The notes under the pieces: model-generated
Told to the model about the DNA's origin: nothing
The model's input: the letters and a program-made list of their open reading frames with translations, nothing else
Database searches by the model: none
In this document: in pieces, positions 10,778 through 45,644 of the stretch
Layout: the number at the start of each line of letters is the position of its first letter
How positions within the stretch are numbered: position 1 is the first letter of the stretch
Position numbers and translations under genes: made by a program
Assembly (NCBI GenBank): GCA_021299455.1
Contig: JAJTGQ010000037.1
Span: 1-45,769 of the forward strand
DNA length: 45,769 nt
Source: Flammeovirgaceae bacterium
GTDB taxonomy: Bacteria > Bacteroidota > Bacteroidia > Cytophagales > Cyclobacteriaceae
Direction: 5' to 3'

Positions 10778-11362
10778 ATGGAACCTCGAAAGCTTTACCA
10801 TCTTTATAACCACGCCAACGGTTTTGAAAATCTGTTCCTGTCGGACGAAAACTATCGTTATTTTCTACATAGATACCAACACTTCATCAGTCCCGTGGCT
10901 GATACATTCGCCTATTGTCTGATGCCTAACCATATTCATTTTTTAGTTCAAGTAAAAACAGAAGAGGAAATTGAATCAGTTTTTGGAAGGTTCGAAACTT
11001 TCCAAAAGTTAGAATATCGAATAAGTAAGCAATTCAGTAACCTATTTAGTGGCTACACGCAAGCTTTCAACAAAATGTACAATCGCAAAGGCAGCCTATT
11101 CATACCCAATTTTAAACGAAAAGAAATAACCGATGATCGCTACATTACCAATATCATTTGTTACATCCATTGCAATCCTATCTATCATGGATTCGCAAAA
11201 AATATTTCCGACTGGCAACGGAGTTCGTATCAACTAATTCTAAATGACACACCAGCGTTTATCAAACGGGAGGAAGTGTTAGAATGGTTTGGCAACCGAA
11301 ATGAATTCGAAAAAATCCACCTCCAAGAATTGAACAACAAAAGACCAACATTTGATTTTTAG
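10778..11362 (+). CDS. REP-associated tyrosine transposase (RAYT-1)
   Basis: Y1-type HUH endonuclease that cuts single-stranded REP hairpins. From the ATG at 10778 it has 194 residues: LYHLYNHANGFENLF, the HUH motif in MPNHIHFLV (His52, His54), the candidate catalytic Tyr93 in SGYTQAFNK, RKGSLFIPNFKRKEI, and the C-terminal WQRSSYQ...EVLEWFGNR. An upstream TTG at 10721 would add 19 residues, but that stretch is the REP palindrome. Residues ~68-77 (VFGRFETFQK) are encoded by an internal REP palindrome. It is paralogous to the RAYT at 43575. Confidence 0.9.
   Translation: MEPRKLYHLYNHANGFENLFLSDENYRYFLHRYQHFISPVADTFAYCLMPNHIHFLVQVKTEEEIESVFGRFETFQKLEYRISKQFSNLFSGYTQAFNKMYNRKGSLFIPNFKRKEITDDRYITNIICYIHCNPIYHGFAKNISDWQRSSYQLILNDTPAFIKREEVLEWFGNRNEFEKIHLQELNNKRPTFDF
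10981..11007. repeat. REP palindrome inside the RAYT-1 coding region
   Basis: TTTTGGAAGGTT / AACTTTCCAAAA with a 3-nt loop, one G-T wobble in the stem. It nearly copies the palindrome at 10718-10746 and is read in frame as residues 68-77. Confidence 0.75.
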
Positions 11363-39124: not shown

Positions 39125-39207
39125 AAAAAACAACCCCGACAAGTCGGGGCTATTTTAAATGTTTTCACAACGGAATAATCCTTATTGTGATTTGCTTCAA
39201 ATTGTGT
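39125..39207 (-). ncRNA. tracrRNA of the type II-C CRISPR system
   Basis: Minus strand. It opens with the anti-repeat CACAATTTGAAGCAAATCACAAT (39184-39206), which pairs with about 21 of the first 24 bases of the CRISPR repeat seen at 45769. Then comes AAGGATTATTCCGTTGTG, a nexus-like GGA-TTA-TTCC hairpin, then an A/T spacer, and a CCCCGAC/GTCGGGG terminator stem (39134-39149) with T-run to 39125. Layout and sequence fit Bacteroidota type II-C tracrRNAs. It is divergent from cas9. Confidence 0.88.
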
Positions 39208-39211
39208 AATT

Positions 39212-39240
39212 CAAAAGTAGCATAAAATATGGAAAACAAA
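39212..39240 (-). promoter_or_regulatory. Promoter of the tracrRNA, overlapping the cas9 start
   Basis: Minus strand: TTTG (39237-39240), 17 nt, TACTTTTG (39212-39219). The expected start at about 39205-39207 is exactly the first base of the anti-repeat. The -33 box lies in cas9 codons 3-4. Confidence 0.6.
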
Positions 39241-42200
39241 AAAATTGTTGGCTTGGACGTAGGCACATCTTCAATAGGATGGGCAGTAATTAACGAAGCT
39301 GAAGGTCAGCAAACCAAAATCCTTGGAATAGGAAGCAGAATAATACCACTTGCTACGGATGAAAAGAGTGAGTTTGAATCGGGTAATGCTATCTCAAAGA
39401 ATCAGAAAAGAACACTAAAGCGTACGCAACGAAAAGGATACGACCGTTATCAGTTAAGAAAGGAGAATCTTGGCAAACGGCTTATTGAATTAGGAATGAT
39501 GCCTGATACTTCGCTGTTCGCATTAAGCGCATTAGAGTTGTATGGGTTGCGTGCCAAAGCGACCTATGAAAAAATTACGTTACCAGAAATTGGTAGGATA
39601 TTATTTCATCTCAACCAGAAAAGAGGTTACAAAAGCAGCCGAAAGGATGAATCGAAAGACAAGAAAGAAACAGATTATGTAGCAGAAGTTAATTCGCGGC
39701 ACGAAAAAATTAAACAAGATAAAATAACCATAGGGCAATATTTCTATTCTCGACTACAAAAAGATGAACGTTATAGAATCAAAGATCAAATCTTCCCAAG
39801 GGCTGCTTATATAGAAGAATTTAATGCGATTTGTTCGACCCAACAAGAATTCTATCCAGAAGTATTAATAGATAACACTATTCGGCAACTGCGTGACGAA
39901 ATCATCTATTATCAACGCCCATTAAAATCGCAGAAAGGTCTTGTTTCCATTTGTGAATTTGAAGCCAAGTGGTTCAGGAATAAGGAGGGCAGAGAAGTAC
40001 TCAGTGGGCCGAAAGTAACGCCCAGAAGTTCTCCGCTCTTTCAGGTCTCTAAGCTGTGGGAAACGATTAATAATATTTCTATTAATTCAAAACGAGGTGA
40101 GCCTTTTACCATTTCCATTGAAAAGAAAAAGGAACTCTTCAATTATTTGGATAACAATGAAAAATTATCCGAGGCAGAGTTATTCAAAATACTTGGTATA
40201 GGCAAAAATGAAGGGTACTACGGAAATAAGCAACTGGCCAAGGGACTTCAAGGTAATTTAACTAAAACAGCCATTGCTAAAGTATTGCAGGGCAGCAATC
40301 CGCTAGTGCAATTATTAACTTTCGATCTAACTGAGGAAAATTATCAACGCCTTGATATTGATTCAGGAGAATTAGCAGAGCGCATCCGTGTGAACGTTGA
40401 TTTAGAACAGCAACCACTCTTTAAACTATGGCACGTACTCTACTCGATACCAGAAGAAAAAGATATTGTTAAAAAACTAGTTGCTGACTTTGACATACCA
40501 GAAGATTTAGCAAATCAACTAGCAAAACTAGACTTCACTAGAGGAGGTTTTAGCAACAAATCATCAAAAGCAACACGCCATATTTTGCCTTATCTTCAGC
40601 AAGGTGCAAAATACAGTGATGCAATGACATTAGCTGGCTATAGCCACTCTGACTCTTTAAGTAGGGCTGAAAATCTTATTCGGCCATTAAAAGATAAACT
40701 CAAGCTGCTCCCCAAAAATAGCTTAAGGCAGCCAGTAGTAGAGAAAATATTAAATCAATTGATCAATCTGGTCAATGCAATTATCGATAAATACGGTAAG
40801 CCAGATGAAATTAGAATTGAACTGGCGCGAGAACTAAAGCAAAGTTTGGATGAACGCAACACCGCATTTAAAAACAACAATAAAAGAGAAACTGAAAATA
40901 AAGGAATTGCTGAAAGGCTTCATAAAGAATATCATGTAAAGGCAAATAGAAGAAACATTGAAAAGTGGAGGTTATATGACCAAACAAACGGAAACTGTTT
41001 GTATTGTGGCAATAAAATTGAATTAGCCGATTTTTTGAATGGCGATGAATCTGATGTAGAACATATCATACCCAAGGCCAAACTATTTGACGACTCCTTT
41101 CAAAATAAAGTAATCAGCCACAGGCGATGTAACAAAGCCAAAGGAGATAGCACCGCTTATGATTATATGCTTACTCAATCCACAGAGCAGTTGAGCCGGT
41201 ATGAAGAATCAGTGGCTCAACTTTTTAAGGATAGAAGAATTACTAAAGCAAAAAGGGATAAGCTATTGATGGCTGAAGCAAAAATACCGAGTGATTTTAT
41301 TGCGCGGCAATTACGTGAAACGCAATACATAGCTCGAAAATCACGGGATATATTACAAGAGGTATGTCGCAACGTTTGGGCGACAAGTGGCAGCGTTACC
41401 GAAAAGCTGCGAAAACTATGGGGTTGGGAAGAAGCCCTCATGCATCTGCAACTCGATAAGTATAAAACAGCAGGAAAAACAGAATGGGTCGAATACGAAA
41501 GCAATGGCCAGACACATAAAAAAGAGCGAATCATTGGTTGGACAAAAAGAGATGACCATCGCCACCATGCCATTGATGCCCTTACCATTGCTTGCACACA
41601 GCAAGGGTTTATACAACGGATCAACACGCTTAACTCGAAGCATACGCGTAATGAAATGCTGGCCGAAGTAAAAGACCAAACTTATAGAGAAAAGCTAACC
41701 TTATTAGAAAAGTCACTCCTTAATAAAAGGCCATTTGATACTGCCAGTATTGAAAAGCACTTATCACAAGTTCTTATTTCATTTAAGTCAGGAAAAAAAG
41801 TAGCCGTCATTGGAAAGAGAAAAGTAAAAAAGAATGGAAAAAAAATAGTAAGGCAAGAAGGTATTGTTATCCCCAGAGGACCACTTAGCGAGGAGAGTGT
41901 CTATGGGAAAATAAAAGTTAGAAAATATGAAACTGTAAAACTTTCGCCTGCATTTGACAATGCAGAGGCCATCATCAACAAATCACACAAGGCATTAGTC
42001 AACAAACGGCTTGATGAATTTAACCAAGAGCCGGCAAAGGCATTTAAAGGATTAGCTAAAAACCCGATTTGGATAGATGCAAGCAAAACGCAAGCTCTAA
42101 CTTCGGTTGATGTGATATCCTTTAAAGACGAGTATGTAATTAAGTACCCCATCGGTAACATTACGTTAAAAGACCTACCCTCAATTGTCGATAAACATAT

Positions 42201-42888
42201 TCGTCAAGTAATTGAAAAAAGGCTCTCCCTCTATAATAACAATGCAAAAGAAGCCTTTAAAGATTTAGAGAATAACCCAGTATGGTTTAATGAAGAAAAA
42301 AGAATACCTATTAGAACTGTCCGTTGTTTCACAGGATTGGATGCAGTAGCTCCCGTAAAATTCAATGATGAAAGTAAAGCTGTTGGTTTCGTAAAGCCAG
42401 GCAACAACCATCACATAGCCATCTATCAAAATGAAGAACGTAAGAAACAAGAACACGTAGTTACTTTCTGGGATGCCGTAGAGAGGAAAATGAATAGAAT
42501 ACCTGTAGTAATCCGAAACCCAAAAGAAATTTGGGATATAGTGCTATCAAACAAAGAAAAATACTCCCAAGATTTCTTAGCAAAGCTTCCAGAAGATGGA
42601 TGGACTTACACAACTAGTATTCAACAAAATGAAATGTTCGTTTTCAATTTAAGTAACGAGACCTTAGATGAAGCTATCCGAAACAAAGACAATGATTTGA
42701 TTAGTAAAAATCTTTTTAGGGTAAGAAAGCTGACAGAGGGGGCATATTGGTTTAACCACCATCTTGAAACTGAACCCAAAGAAAGCGTGGAGGACAAGAA
42801 ATTAGGAAAGTGTGTGCAGGCAAGCTTAACAAGCATGACAGGGATAAAAGTAAAGATTGACTGCCTTGGCAATATTTCAAGAGCTTAA
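39229..42888 (+). CDS. cas9: CRISPR-associated endonuclease Cas9, type II-C
   Basis: 1219 residues. RuvC-I has Asp10 in KIVGLDVGTSSIGWAV; the Arg-rich bridge helix is KNQKRTLKRTQRKGYDRYQLRKENL (about 64-88); RuvC-II has Glu531 in IRIELARELKQ; HNH is CLYCGNK...DVEHIIPKA (His612) with a second Cys pair region ISHRRCNKAKG; RuvC-III is HRHHAIDALTIACT (His780, Asp783). All catalytic residues are present, so it should cut DNA. The C-terminus is the WED/PAM-interacting region. Type II-C because only cas1 and cas2 accompany it. It is AT-rich (28-42% GC in sampled lines), unlike cas1. Confidence 0.97.
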   Translation: MENKKIVGLDVGTSSIGWAVINEAEGQQTKILGIGSRIIPLATDEKSEFESGNAISKNQKRTLKRTQRKGYDRYQLRKENLGKRLIELGMMPDTSLFALSALELYGLRAKATYEKITLPEIGRILFHLNQKRGYKSSRKDESKDKKETDYVAEVNSRHEKIKQDKITIGQYFYSRLQKDERYRIKDQIFPRAAYIEEFNAICSTQQEFYPEVLIDNTIRQLRDEIIYYQRPLKSQKGLVSICEFEAKWFRNKEGREVLSGPKVTPRSSPLFQVSKLWETINNISINSKRGEPFTISIEKKKELFNYLDNNEKLSEAELFKILGIGKNEGYYGNKQLAKGLQGNLTKTAIAKVLQGSNPLVQLLTFDLTEENYQRLDIDSGELAERIRVNVDLEQQPLFKLWHVLYSIPEEKDIVKKLVADFDIPEDLANQLAKLDFTRGGFSNKSSKATRHILPYLQQGAKYSDAMTLAGYSHSDSLSRAENLIRPLKDKLKLLPKNSLRQPVVEKILNQLINLVNAIIDKYGKPDEIRIELARELKQSLDERNTAFKNNNKRETENKGIAERLHKEYHVKANRRNIEKWRLYDQTNGNCLYCGNKIELADFLNGDESDVEHIIPKAKLFDDSFQNKVISHRRCNKAKGDSTAYDYMLTQSTEQLSRYEESVAQLFKDRRITKAKRDKLLMAEAKIPSDFIARQLRETQYIARKSRDILQEVCRNVWATSGSVTEKLRKLWGWEEALMHLQLDKYKTAGKTEWVEYESNGQTHKKERIIGWTKRDDHRHHAIDALTIACTQQGFIQRINTLNSKHTRNEMLAEVKDQTYREKLTLLEKSLLNKRPFDTASIEKHLSQVLISFKSGKKVAVIGKRKVKKNGKKIVRQEGIVIPRGPLSEESVYGKIKVRKYETVKLSPAFDNAEAIINKSHKALVNKRLDEFNQEPAKAFKGLAKNPIWIDASKTQALTSVDVISFKDEYVIKYPIGNITLKDLPSIVDKHIRQVIEKRLSLYNNNAKEAFKDLENNPVWFNEEKRIPIRTVRCFTGLDAVAPVKFNDESKAVGFVKPGNNHHIAIYQNEERKKQEHVVTFWDAVERKMNRIPVVIRNPKEIWDIVLSNKEKYSQDFLAKLPEDGWTYTTSIQQNEMFVFNLSNETLDEAIRNKDNDLISKNLFRVRKLTEGAYWFNHHLETEPKESVEDKKLGKCVQASLTSMTGIKVKIDCLGNISRA

Positions 42889-42901: not shown

Positions 42902-43102
42902 ATGGCACCAAAGATGCTCTACCATCTCTACACCCACACCAATGGCTCTGAAAACCTCTTCTTCAGTGATGAGAACTTTCGATATTTTTTAAAACTATAT
43001 AGAGTTTACAACGCGAGGCAAAGGCCTGACAGGTCTTCTCCGCGATGGCCATCAAGACCTGTCAGGTCTAGCCAGAATCCAGCAACTTGTTCTCAACTCT
43101 AA
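42902..43102 (+). pseudogene. Truncated RAYT copy 1, frameshifted
   Basis: Begins M-A-P-K-M-LYHLYTHTNGSENLFFSDENFRYFLK like a RAYT, but a 2-nt loss near 43000 shifts the frame so that the REP part reads as RQRPDRSSPRWP. It lacks the HUH motif and catalytic Tyr. It starts 14 nt after the cas9 stop. Probably inactive. Confidence 0.75.
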
Positions 43103-43124
43103 ATCCGTTAATGAATAAAGTACC

Positions 43125-43343
43125 ATGTTGCCCGGCAGAACCTACCATTTGTACACCCACGCCAACGGATCGGAAAACCTCTTCCGCTGTGATGAGAATT
43201 TCAGGTATTTTTTAAGACGATATAAAGAGTTTACAACGCGAAGCAAAGGCCTGACAGGTCTTCTCCGCGATGGCCATCAAGACCTATCAGGTCTAGCCAG
43301 AATCCAGCAACTTATTCTCACCTCTAAATCCGTTAATGAATAA
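43125..43343 (+). pseudogene. Truncated RAYT copy 2, 72 aa open frame
   Basis: MLPGRTYHLYTHANGSENLF...RYFLRRYKEFTTR followed directly by the REP-encoded peptide GLTGLLRDGHQDLSGL and a short tail to a stop. About 38 residues that hold the HUH motif in the intact gene are missing. The frame stays open, so a small protein could be made, but no enzyme activity is expected. Confidence 0.75.
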
Positions 43344-43349
43344 AACACC

Positions 43350-43565
43350 ATGTTGCCCGGCAGAACCTACCATTTGTACACCCACGCCATTGGCTCTGAA
43401 AACCTCTTCCGCAGCGATCAAAATTTTCGGTATTTTTTAAAACGATATAAAGAGTTTACAACGCGAGGCAAAGGCCTGACAGGTCTTCTCCGCGATTGCC
43501 ATCAAGACCTGTCAGGTCTAGCCAGAATCCAGCAACTTATTCTCAACTCTAAATCCGTTAATTAA
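43350..43565 (+). pseudogene. Truncated RAYT copy 3, 71 aa open frame
   Basis: Same build as copy 2 with scattered differences (AIGSENLFRSDQNF for ANGSENLFRCDENF). It ends at TAA 43563-43565. HUH and Tyr motifs are absent. Confidence 0.75.
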
Positions 43566-43574
43566 TAAAACACC

Positions 43575-44216
43575 ATGTTGCCTGGCAGAACCTACCACTT
43601 GTACACCCACGCCAACGGATCGGAAAACCTTTTCCGCTGCGATGAAAATTTTCGGTATTTTTTAAAGCGATATGAAGAATTTACGGGCCGTGTGGCCGAT
43701 ACGTTGGCCTGGTGCCTGATGCCCAACCACCTGCACCTGTTGGTAAAAATAAAAAGCGAAGCGGAGCTGGTGGGTTTTTTTAAGAGTAAAAATTTAGTGA
43801 AAGACCTGACAGGTCTTTTTCGCGATGGCCAACAAGACCTGTCAGGTCTGGAGGCGGAATTGGAGCTACAGCGCCTTACTATTTTACAATTCAGCCATCT
43901 CCTTAACGCCTACACCAAAGCATACAACAAAGTTTACCAGCGCAAAGGGTCGCTCTTCACAAGGGCTTTTAAACGCAAAGAAATTACCACCGACAGCTAC
44001 TTTACCTCAATCATCCACTACATCCATCACAACCCGGCACATCATGGCTTTGTAGAAAAAATAGAAAGCTGGCCGTGGAGTTCATACCATGCACTTCTCT
44101 CGCAATCGCTTTCACCCATTCAACAAGAAGTAATTGATTGGTTTGGCAATCGCAAGCAATTCATTGAATTCCATCAACAGGCAGCACAACCGTTACCCGA
44201 AATAGCCCATGATTAA
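43575..44216 (+). CDS. REP-associated tyrosine transposase (RAYT-2) inside the cas operon
   Basis: 213 residues, Y1-type HUH endonuclease: N-terminal LYHLYTHANGSENLF, HUH in MPNHLHLLV (His52, His54), candidate catalytic Tyr113 in LNAYTKAYNK, RKGSLFTRAFKRKEI, and C-terminal SWPWSSYHALL...EVIDWFGNRKQF. Residues 76-92 (KDLTGLFRDGQQDLSGL) are encoded by a REP palindrome inserted in frame. The stop overlaps the cas1 ATG (ATGATTAA, 44209-44216), so cas1 translation is probably coupled to it. It is intact, in contrast to the three partial copies before it. No known Cas function. Confidence 0.92.
   Translation: MLPGRTYHLYTHANGSENLFRCDENFRYFLKRYEEFTGRVADTLAWCLMPNHLHLLVKIKSEAELVGFFKSKNLVKDLTGLFRDGQQDLSGLEAELELQRLTILQFSHLLNAYTKAYNKVYQRKGSLFTRAFKRKEITTDSYFTSIIHYIHHNPAHHGFVEKIESWPWSSYHALLSQSLSPIQQEVIDWFGNRKQFIEFHQQAAQPLPEIAHD
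43802..43849. repeat. REP palindrome pair inside RAYT-2
   Basis: AGACCTGACAGGTCTT (43802-43817) and AAGACCTGTCAGGTCT (43834-43849) are exact reverse complements with a 16-nt spacer; each arm is itself nearly palindromic. The same hairpin occurs in the three upstream units. Confidence 0.9.
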
Positions 44217-45195
44217 ACGCACGCTGTACTTTGGCAACCCGGCCTATCTTAGCACTACACTTGATCAGCTTGTAGTCCGGCTGCCCACTATTGAAAAAAA
44301 TGATGGTCTACCTGCAGGATTTAAAAAAGAAGCGGCAGCCACCATACCCATTGAAGACATTGGTGTAGTCATGCTCGATCATCAGCAGATCATCATTACT
44401 CAGGCGCTGATGGCCAAACTACTCGACAACAACGCAGCCATTATCACCTGCAACCCTACGCATCACCCTACCGGATTACTACTCAATTTAGAGGGACATT
44501 CATTGCAGAGCCAACGCTTTCAGGCACAGCTTGAAGCAACCGAGCCATTGAAAAAGCAATTATGGCAACAAACCATTCGGGCCAAAATTTTAAATCAGGC
44601 CGCCTTATTACGGTGGCGTGGGTATGAAACCACCAACATGGAACGCTGGGCCAATGAAGTAAAATCGGGCGACCCCGAAAACATGGAAGGCCGTGCAGCT
44701 GCATGGTATTGGGCGCATATTTTTAAAGGCATAAAGGCCTATCTCCCTTTTGATGAGGGAGCGTCCGCCAACAGTTTATCCAATTTTGTGCGTGACCCTG
44801 GCGGCCTGGCACCCAATCAACTGCTCAACTATACCTATGCTTTGTTGCGCGCCACCATGGCACGCTCGCTGGTGGGGTCGGGCTTGTTGCCAGTAATGGG
44901 CATCTTTCACCGCAACCAATACAACGCCTATTGTTTGGCAGATGACATTATGGAACCCTACCGACCTTTTGCCGATAGACTGGTGGTGCAACTGATAGAG
45001 GAAAACGGATTGGCAGAGGAGCTTACTCCAACTATTAAAAAAAAATTACTCGTTTTGCCTGCGCTGGATGTATGCCTCCAAGGCGAAACCAGTCCGTTGA
45101 TGGTAGCTATGCAGCGCACAAGTGCTTCGCTGGCCAAATGCTTTTTGGGAGAAACAAGAAAAGTCATTTATCCTTCTTTGGAAGTTGGGACCTAG
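44209..45195 (+). CDS. cas1: CRISPR integrase Cas1, type II
   Basis: 328 residues. Catalytic Glu160 (ENMEGRAAAWYW), His234 (GIFHRNQYNAYC) and the Asp246/Glu249 cluster (LADDIMEPYRP) are present; also ANSLSNF...NQLLNYTYALLRA. With Cas2 it inserts new spacers. The start is fixed by the family N-terminus MIKRTLYFGNPAYL. It overlaps the RAYT-2 stop by 8 nt. Sampled lines are 57-60% GC, well above cas9. Confidence 0.96.
   Translation: MIKRTLYFGNPAYLSTTLDQLVVRLPTIEKNDGLPAGFKKEAAATIPIEDIGVVMLDHQQIIITQALMAKLLDNNAAIITCNPTHHPTGLLLNLEGHSLQSQRFQAQLEATEPLKKQLWQQTIRAKILNQAALLRWRGYETTNMERWANEVKSGDPENMEGRAAAWYWAHIFKGIKAYLPFDEGASANSLSNFVRDPGGLAPNQLLNYTYALLRATMARSLVGSGLLPVMGIFHRNQYNAYCLADDIMEPYRPFADRLVVQLIEENGLAEELTPTIKKKLLVLPALDVCLQGETSPLMVAMQRTSASLAKCFLGETRKVIYPSLEVGT

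Positions 45196-45263: not shown

Positions 45264-45644
<381 letters not shown>

Follow-up and report, generated by a model that had tools for sequence, protein, structure and literature searches.

A RAYT gene that recurs between cas9 and cas1 in Bacteroidota: a possible aid to CRISPR adaptation or a persistent passenger

What is a gene of the RAYT family, preceded by a row of hairpin-bearing partial copies, doing inside a CRISPR-Cas operon? The question is raised by a stretch of 45,769 nucleotides from a Flammeovirgaceae bacterium (hereafter the window), whose family we take to be the Cyclobacteriaceae of GTDB. Toward its end four genes lie on one strand (+) and match the Cas9, REP_Tyr_transpos, Cas1, and Cas2 models: a type II cas9 encoding 1219 aa (39229..42888; TIGR01865, 1.1e-153, with RuvC_III and HNH_4), an intact RAYT encoding a TnpAREP-like Y1 HUH protein of 213 aa (43575..44216), a type II cas1 (44209..45195; TIGR03639, 2.2e-81), and a cas2 ORF (45276..45632; TIGR01573, 1.9e-18; PF09827) in which homology to other Cas2 proteins begins only near 45318. 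The first CRISPR repeat, of 47 bp, is located at the contig end (45723..45769) and matches the array repeats of locus L198, found in a very close relative. A CRISPR-repeat-like stretch 5′ of cas9 (39184..39207) was read as a putative tracrRNA anti-repeat, and a stretch near it is shared with L198 despite the differing cas9 genes; searches of Rfam with E up to 0.1 gave no match for this tracr stretch or for the hairpins described below. The cas9-cas1-cas2 order, the repeats recognized by comparison with L198, and the lack of csn2 and cas4 place the locus in type II-C, with which it shares cas9, cas1, cas2, the repeat array, and the anti-repeat-like stretch, and from which it differs by the RAYT and tandem units inserted between cas9 and cas1. 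RAYT and cas1 share 8 nt, the stop of the one lying across the start of the other (ATGATTAA, 44209..44216, strand +), an overlap already pointed out in an earlier note on this DNA.

The RAYT protein scores 71.3 of 80 bits with the REP_Tyr_transpos model (NF047646, 7.3e-20), that is, under the curated cut-off, and PADLOC gave no match for it. Both motifs of the RAYT/TnpAREP proteins, HuH and Y---NP, are intact, as the earlier note had claimed: the first is NHLH (residues 51–54), and Tyr149 lies within YIHHNP. The protein matches E. coli TnpAREP (4er8) in sequence at 1.3e-5, and its predicted model (pLDDT 89, pTM 0.86) matches the same structure in Foldseek with an E of 2.6e-9, a probability of 1.00, and a TM of 0.69 by target and 0.54 by query, which points to the Y1 HUH fold. 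Model confidence falls below pLDDT 50 in a single segment, residues 75–89, which the stretch KDLTGLFRDGQQDLSGL overlaps; this stretch is encoded by an in-frame palindrome of 48–50 bp (about 43800–43849). A REP-like palindrome also lies upstream of the gene, flanking palindromes being a trait of RAYT loci, and dispersal of such REPs over the genome was not found with exact patterns, which may leave degenerate copies aside.

Between cas9 and the intact gene lie three partial units on the + strand, of 223 bp (42902..43124, frameshifted), 225 bp (43125..43349, with an open frame of 72 codons), and 225 bp (43350..43574, with an open frame of 71 codons), each composed of a RAYT 5′ end, a palindrome (43022..43069, 43247..43294, and 43472..43519, respectively), and a tail; the palindrome flanking the intact gene upstream is that of unit 3. 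The earlier note had correctly described this set of units followed by one intact RAYT, together with the open frame in two of the three copies. Its description of the units as RAYT 5′ ends fused to a REP hairpin is right as to the 5′ ends, but the hairpin is native, being present in frame inside the intact gene. Since the intact gene contains the palindrome of the units in frame, the units are copies of the RAYT's own 5′ end, each running from there to the gene's own hairpin and then continuing as the leader before the next ATG. The 225-bp units correspond to this segment minus an in-frame 105 bp with the HUH codons, and the related locus L199 retains one unit of 330 bp without the deletion. 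The number of units varies between relatives, a point that the note had proposed to check: three in the window, five in L198, four plus an older remnant in L199, and one in L203. Partial or decayed copies of the RAYT 5′ end, the decayed ones called by eye, precede the RAYT also in L093, L097, L101, L103, L105, and L107.

The palindromes are largely a property of this locus. A window scan with AGACCTGTCAGGTCT, tolerating up to 2 mismatches, gave 16 matches on both strands, all at the locus, with 0.01 expected. In the bacterium's own genome eight of nine exact 14-mer palindrome matches are at the cas locus, and unit DNA is found at this locus only; in the genomes of 12 relatives, where the palindromes are of low copy, 18 of 49 sites lie within 3 kb of cas1 (a hand tally, with matches within about 60 bp merged). 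A genome-scattered REP family was rejected on the near confinement of the exact palindrome to the locus, degenerate copies falling outside an exact-pattern search. Among nine 225-bp units the changes in the RAYT-derived part are distributed as 6, 7, and 24 over codon positions 1–3 (p 9e-5), and those in the tail (eight units) as 13, 4, and 5. As the 39 RAYT codons of the units vary mainly at third positions, the mini-ORFs may be translated; the full gene may, however, serve as a source from which the units are renewed, and for that reason the constraint is only suggestive of translated mini-ORFs. In L198, near 10800, a GC-rich hairpin-like insertion was seen by eye within one 47-bp CRISPR repeat.

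The same arrangement is common in the family. A II-C-like Cas1 is encoded in 43 of the 196 family genomes, one broken copy included and lower-scoring Cas1 matches of other kinds excluded. A same-strand RAYT occupies the cas9-cas1 gap in 25 of the 42 judged family II-C loci, the window included, versus one of the 54 judged II-C loci of other sampled Bacteroidota families (Fisher 7e-11); in ten of these 54 no same-strand Cas9-like ORF was seen upstream, and with only those outside loci that have such an ORF in view the comparison is 25/42 versus 1/44 (2e-9). G106 (L098), L144, and L150 were dropped as contig-edge cases, and G175 (L119), with a broken cas1 and no cas9 found, is included among the 25. 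A wider HMM search over the RAYT-less loci revealed no further RAYT in the gap; in L110 it picked up the known RAYT downstream of cas2, on the opposite strand. The statement of the earlier note that type II-C operons normally run without an insert is thus valid outside the family (53 of 54 judged loci) and not within it, and the situation that would have spoken for chance, no relative with a RAYT here, is not the one found, the gene being exactly here in 25 of the 42 family loci.

A scan of relatives, with one genome per species and an alignment of ten slot RAYTs as the query, which biases the result to slot RAYTs, placed 28 of the best 80 of 545 relatives in the slot, the top 15 without exception, and a further one between cas2 and cas9. 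Of the 28, twelve come from genomes already counted, and the total of 42 different slot loci consists of the 25, L140, and 16 new ones, with the window and L198, very close relatives, both among them. All 42 slot RAYTs are co-directional; 14 of them have a stop that overlaps the start of cas1, by 8 nt in 11 (window included) and by 4 nt in three. The carriers include Chryseotalea sanaruensis (assigned to Chryseotaleaceae in the NCBI taxonomy), Shiella aurantiaca, Splendidivirga corallicola, Belliella kenyensis, Roseivirga spongicola, and Hydrotalea flava. In L264 (4676–10585) the order is cas1-cas2-RAYT-cas9, i.e., a RAYT is again located at the border of effector and adaptation genes, and in the RAYT-free L083 (4853–6022) and L092 (5489–6619) the same gap is filled with ORFs that by eye are ATPase-like.

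The slot RAYTs of the family are well preserved: the HUH motif is present in 25/25 and the canonical YIHxNP in 23/25, and none of the 25 has an internal stop. In L091 and L119 the Tyr motif is split by a seven-residue insert (YLSVRKAGIHHNP) that may disable catalysis. In one close clade of six the mean dN/dS is 0.072 for RAYT (11 of 15 pairs with defined dS) and 0.020 for cas1 (7 of 15 pairs), and the tested RAYT clade is under purifying selection. A strong in-frame palindrome lies between HUH and Tyr in 23 of the 25 genes, each outscoring its own 20 codon shuffles, with sequences that vary from lineage to lineage; strong hairpins also occur upstream of RAYT (10 of the 25 loci) and in the interval that separates it from cas1 (14 loci). 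Two long RAYTs, P0099 and P0101, have the HUH-Tyr loop filled by short peptide repeats, marking it as a site of repeat insertion.

In comparison with the REPtrons (class 2 TnpAY1) described by Quentin et al. (2018) in the available part of PMC6006769, the window RAYT has in common the HUH and YxxxNP core with the 4er8 fold, hairpins beside and inside the gene, and few copies per genome, and it differs by its link to CRISPR adaptation genes and by the absence, judged by eye, of a GT[AG]G foot at the four palindromes of the window. In-frame REP insertions between HuH and Y are reported there mainly for RAYT subclass 2.4, and the in-gene hairpin is therefore a trait known in kind. The 23 in-frame palindromes agree with subclass 2.4 (group 4), but two other marks of that subclass, the W(Q) motif and the GT[AG]G foot, are absent from the window, where inspection by eye showed no W in the part of the protein that separates HUH from Y. 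Subclass 2.6 (group 5, Bacteroidetes) is defined by NH[LIV]H, YIH[QN]NP, an SS motif, a HuH-Y distance of about 82, and atypical hairpins; the slot RAYTs have SS in 25/25, an HUH-Y spacing of 74–98, and, in the window, hairpins without GT[AG]G, whereas many relatives have NHFH and the window has YIHHNP.

RAYTs are linked to CRISPR loci of a second type as well. When 80 of the 96 ORFs neighbouring RAYTs without a II-C slot were scanned against Pfam, Cas4 was the most frequent match (6/80). By mapping and tblastn a RAYT was placed directly 5′ of cas4 in L224, L226, L230, L261, and L266; in L222 and the family locus L073 its position is between cas4 and cas1, an extra ORF preceding cas1 in L222, and in L213 it follows cas5 at a contig end. 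The RAYTs of L066 and L073 are type I-linked. Protein models identified Cas3b, Cas4b, and Cas1b in L224, and Cas8a, Cas7a, and Cas5a in L266. With the queries used, 36 of the best 80 relatives are directly cas-linked and 44 are not. Surveyed from the cas1 side within flanks of 1.5 kb, a RAYT is present at 5 of 57 judged type I loci (2/28 in the family and 3/29 in others, one weak); the matches judged were those with flanks, namely 28 of 29 from the family search and, from the phylum search, the top 30 of about 61 strong ones. As the upstream gene at type I loci varies (cas3, cas5, or another ORF), the constant neighbour is the adaptation module, which is the common point of RAYT placement.

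The slot has had a lively history. A tree was built from 120 RAYTs, of which 43 are linked to II-C loci, 8 to type I loci, and 69 to neither; L005, L008, L182, and loci from genomes already represented were left out. On it 24 label changes are needed, at least nine of them forced by well supported branches, and on the Cas1 tree the presence of RAYT needs 10 changes, at least seven of them forced. L099 and L100 have Cas1 proteins that are 96% identical and RAYTs from different lineages. Taken together, these data indicate a slot that was filled, emptied, and refilled, the trees requiring repeated gain, loss, or swap. A dedicated clade of cas RAYTs was ruled out, as cas and non-cas labels mix on the tree; within the window's clade and within L097–L109 (minus L100) the slot stays with one RAYT lineage. 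The window contains a second RAYT (10781–11362), 33 kb off and with no adjoining cas gene, which groups with the cas-slot RAYT of G094, from the same genus, and not with the window's own slot RAYT. In L119 (G175) the RAYT frame is open though cas9 was not found and cas1 is internally deleted.

Several readings of this recurrence have to be weighed. That a single REPtron inserted here by chance and decayed in tandem can hardly be true: unit 1 is decayed and a second RAYT does exist elsewhere in the window, but the relatives share a RAYT at the same place, in many genera and at two CRISPR types, and this refutes it. A regulatory role for the RAYT, which would set or insulate cas1-cas2 expression by binding to its own hairpins within the gene and on either side of it, is improbable. 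The strong hairpins within the gene (23/25), upstream of it (10), and in the RAYT-cas1 interval (14) are in its favour, yet where the genes overlap there is no room for a hairpin, and the likeness of hairpins within a locus is modest (mean 7-mer sharing 0.28 in 22 comparisons, versus 0.11 between loci). A hairpin 3′ of cas2 is not enriched, being found in 8/41 RAYT-carrying versus 12/37 RAYT-free loci, and was discarded as a general mark. Somewhat less improbable, though still unlikely, is that the RAYT and its hairpins at the cas9-cas1 border give DNA ends or homology promoting the exchange of cas9, with the adaptation genes and repeats retained. Upstream, a stretch of 350 bp is 99.7% identical between the window and L198; their cas9 genes differ, and agreement resumes about 38 nt before the end of cas9 and runs through the units, RAYT, cas1, cas2, and repeats, a clean replacement of cas9; in L080 (4989–5321) an old window-like cas9 3′ end remains between a different cas9 and the RAYT. 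When disjoint pairs were formed from loci whose Cas1 identity is 0.80 or more, the Cas9 C-terminus is less than 0.40 identical in 11/12 pairs with RAYT versus 1/6 pairs without (p 0.004; from 0.003 to 0.022 over four thresholds). However, family and RAYT are inseparable in these pairs, those without RAYT coming almost all from other families, which weakens the link; moreover, two of four mixed pairs inside the family are swapped at 0.80, the sole RAYT-free family pair (at 0.75) is swapped too, and the left breakpoint lies at the tracr region, where RAYT is absent.

Two readings carry most of the weight and are about equally likely, with a slight lead, because the search had not been designed to yield the type I finding, for the RAYT-REP cassette being retained as an accessory of the CRISPR adaptation module. 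This we hold tentatively, at somewhat short of an even chance. It is favoured by the occurrence at two CRISPR types, the orientation, the cas1 overlap, the mostly intact motifs, and the longer arrays: in the family the median array has 30 repeats in 17 loci with RAYT versus 18 in 10 loci without, these being the 17 of 25 and 10 of 17 loci with enough downstream sequence (p 0.05, kinship uncorrected). The enrichment in the family, the low dN/dS, and the retention of the RAYT array with cas1, cas2, and repeats across the cas9 replacement that separates the window from L198 point the same way. Recurrent linkage to cas1-cas2, expected of an adaptation accessory, is observed, while the absence of RAYT from 17/42 family and 53/54 other judged loci and its low rate at type I loci stand against such a role. 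The competing reading is that effector and adaptation genes meet at a gap that tolerates insertions and often recombines, where a RAYT-REP cassette lands or is carried and persists through read-through and as part of a selected locus that is exchanged horizontally, with no role in CRISPR. A passenger of this kind is favoured by the patchy presence, the frequent gain, loss, and swap, the persistence of RAYT next to the broken cas genes of G175, and the lack of fusions: no RAYT-Cas1 fusion was found among proteins of about 298–947 aa, and two long RAYT proteins were not Cas1 fusions by length, sequence, or Pfam domains. The other ORFs in the gap (L083, L092, and one before RAYT in L100) fit it too, as do the palindromes clustered near the locus in the bacterium's own genome and in the 12 relatives, a pattern that in the available part of PMC8266576 is taken as recent arrival for other REPtrons. 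It accounts less well for RAYTs that adjoin the adaptation genes, on their strand, at two CRISPR types with different upstream genes, for an occupancy of about 60% in one family, for the recurrent cas1 overlap, and for the lack of internal stops in the 25 family slot RAYTs. The two alternatives of the earlier note, landing and expansion of a REPtron or recruitment of an HUH nuclease, therefore both stand; the type I association favours recruitment, which is weakened by cas RAYTs not forming one clade and being swapped with non-cas ones, and by the 44 of the best 80 relatives that are not cas-linked.

If the cassette is an adaptation accessory, the RAYT would be made together with Cas1-Cas2, and its HUH and Tyr residues would cut and join single-stranded DNA on hairpin or fork-like substrates, either freeing and trimming the DNA captured by Cas1-Cas2 or opening the end of the array so that integration can proceed. 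The idea of a Cas4 substitute was rejected, because RAYT and Cas4 co-occur in type I loci. The tandem units would be by-products of a duplication that took in the leader and the 5′ part of the RAYT, start codon through in-gene hairpin, later copies having lost the HUH codons in frame. Slightly less probable than either main reading is the fuller proposal that a RAYT-family HUH/tyrosine single-strand nuclease is a genuine, repeatedly recruited adaptation component in Bacteroidota types II-C and I, working with Cas1-Cas2 and modulated by translated mini-RAYTs that the truncated tandem copies encode. Known adaptation accessories include Cas4, Csn2, and RT-Cas1; the RAYT resembles them in being a non-core DNA-processing gene linked to cas1/cas2, and differs by its HUH/Tyr chemistry, its co-occurrence with Cas4, and the lack of any fusion found.

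In the literature, searched by titles and abstract beginnings and largely without subscription papers, RAYTs in cas loci were not found. CRISPR is not mentioned in the main text of PMC6006769, and HUH, TnpA, and RayT have no occurrences in the main text of PMC10910872, in the available part of which adaptation-linked genes are discussed. The accessible portion of PMC9067536 describes palindromes that overlap cas genes of types I and III. According to the available parts of PMC6006769 and PMC8266576, what the widespread, domesticated RAYT transposases do for their hosts is an open question, and Bertels and Rainey, in the accessible text of PMC3116915, raised the speculative idea of an origin of CRISPRs from REPIN-like elements. 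With a RAYT next to cas1 there is a definite place to examine for it, although the present data do not show such an origin.

To our knowledge, prespacer processing in type II-C systems, which work without Cas4 and Csn2, is only partly understood. The linkage of RAYT and cas1 joins this question with that of the host function of RAYTs, in a form that can be tested in named, cultured strains. Its recurrence at the same place in the CRISPR loci of Bacteroidota suggests that the RAYT is either a helper in the formation of CRISPR memory or an unusually faithful passenger.
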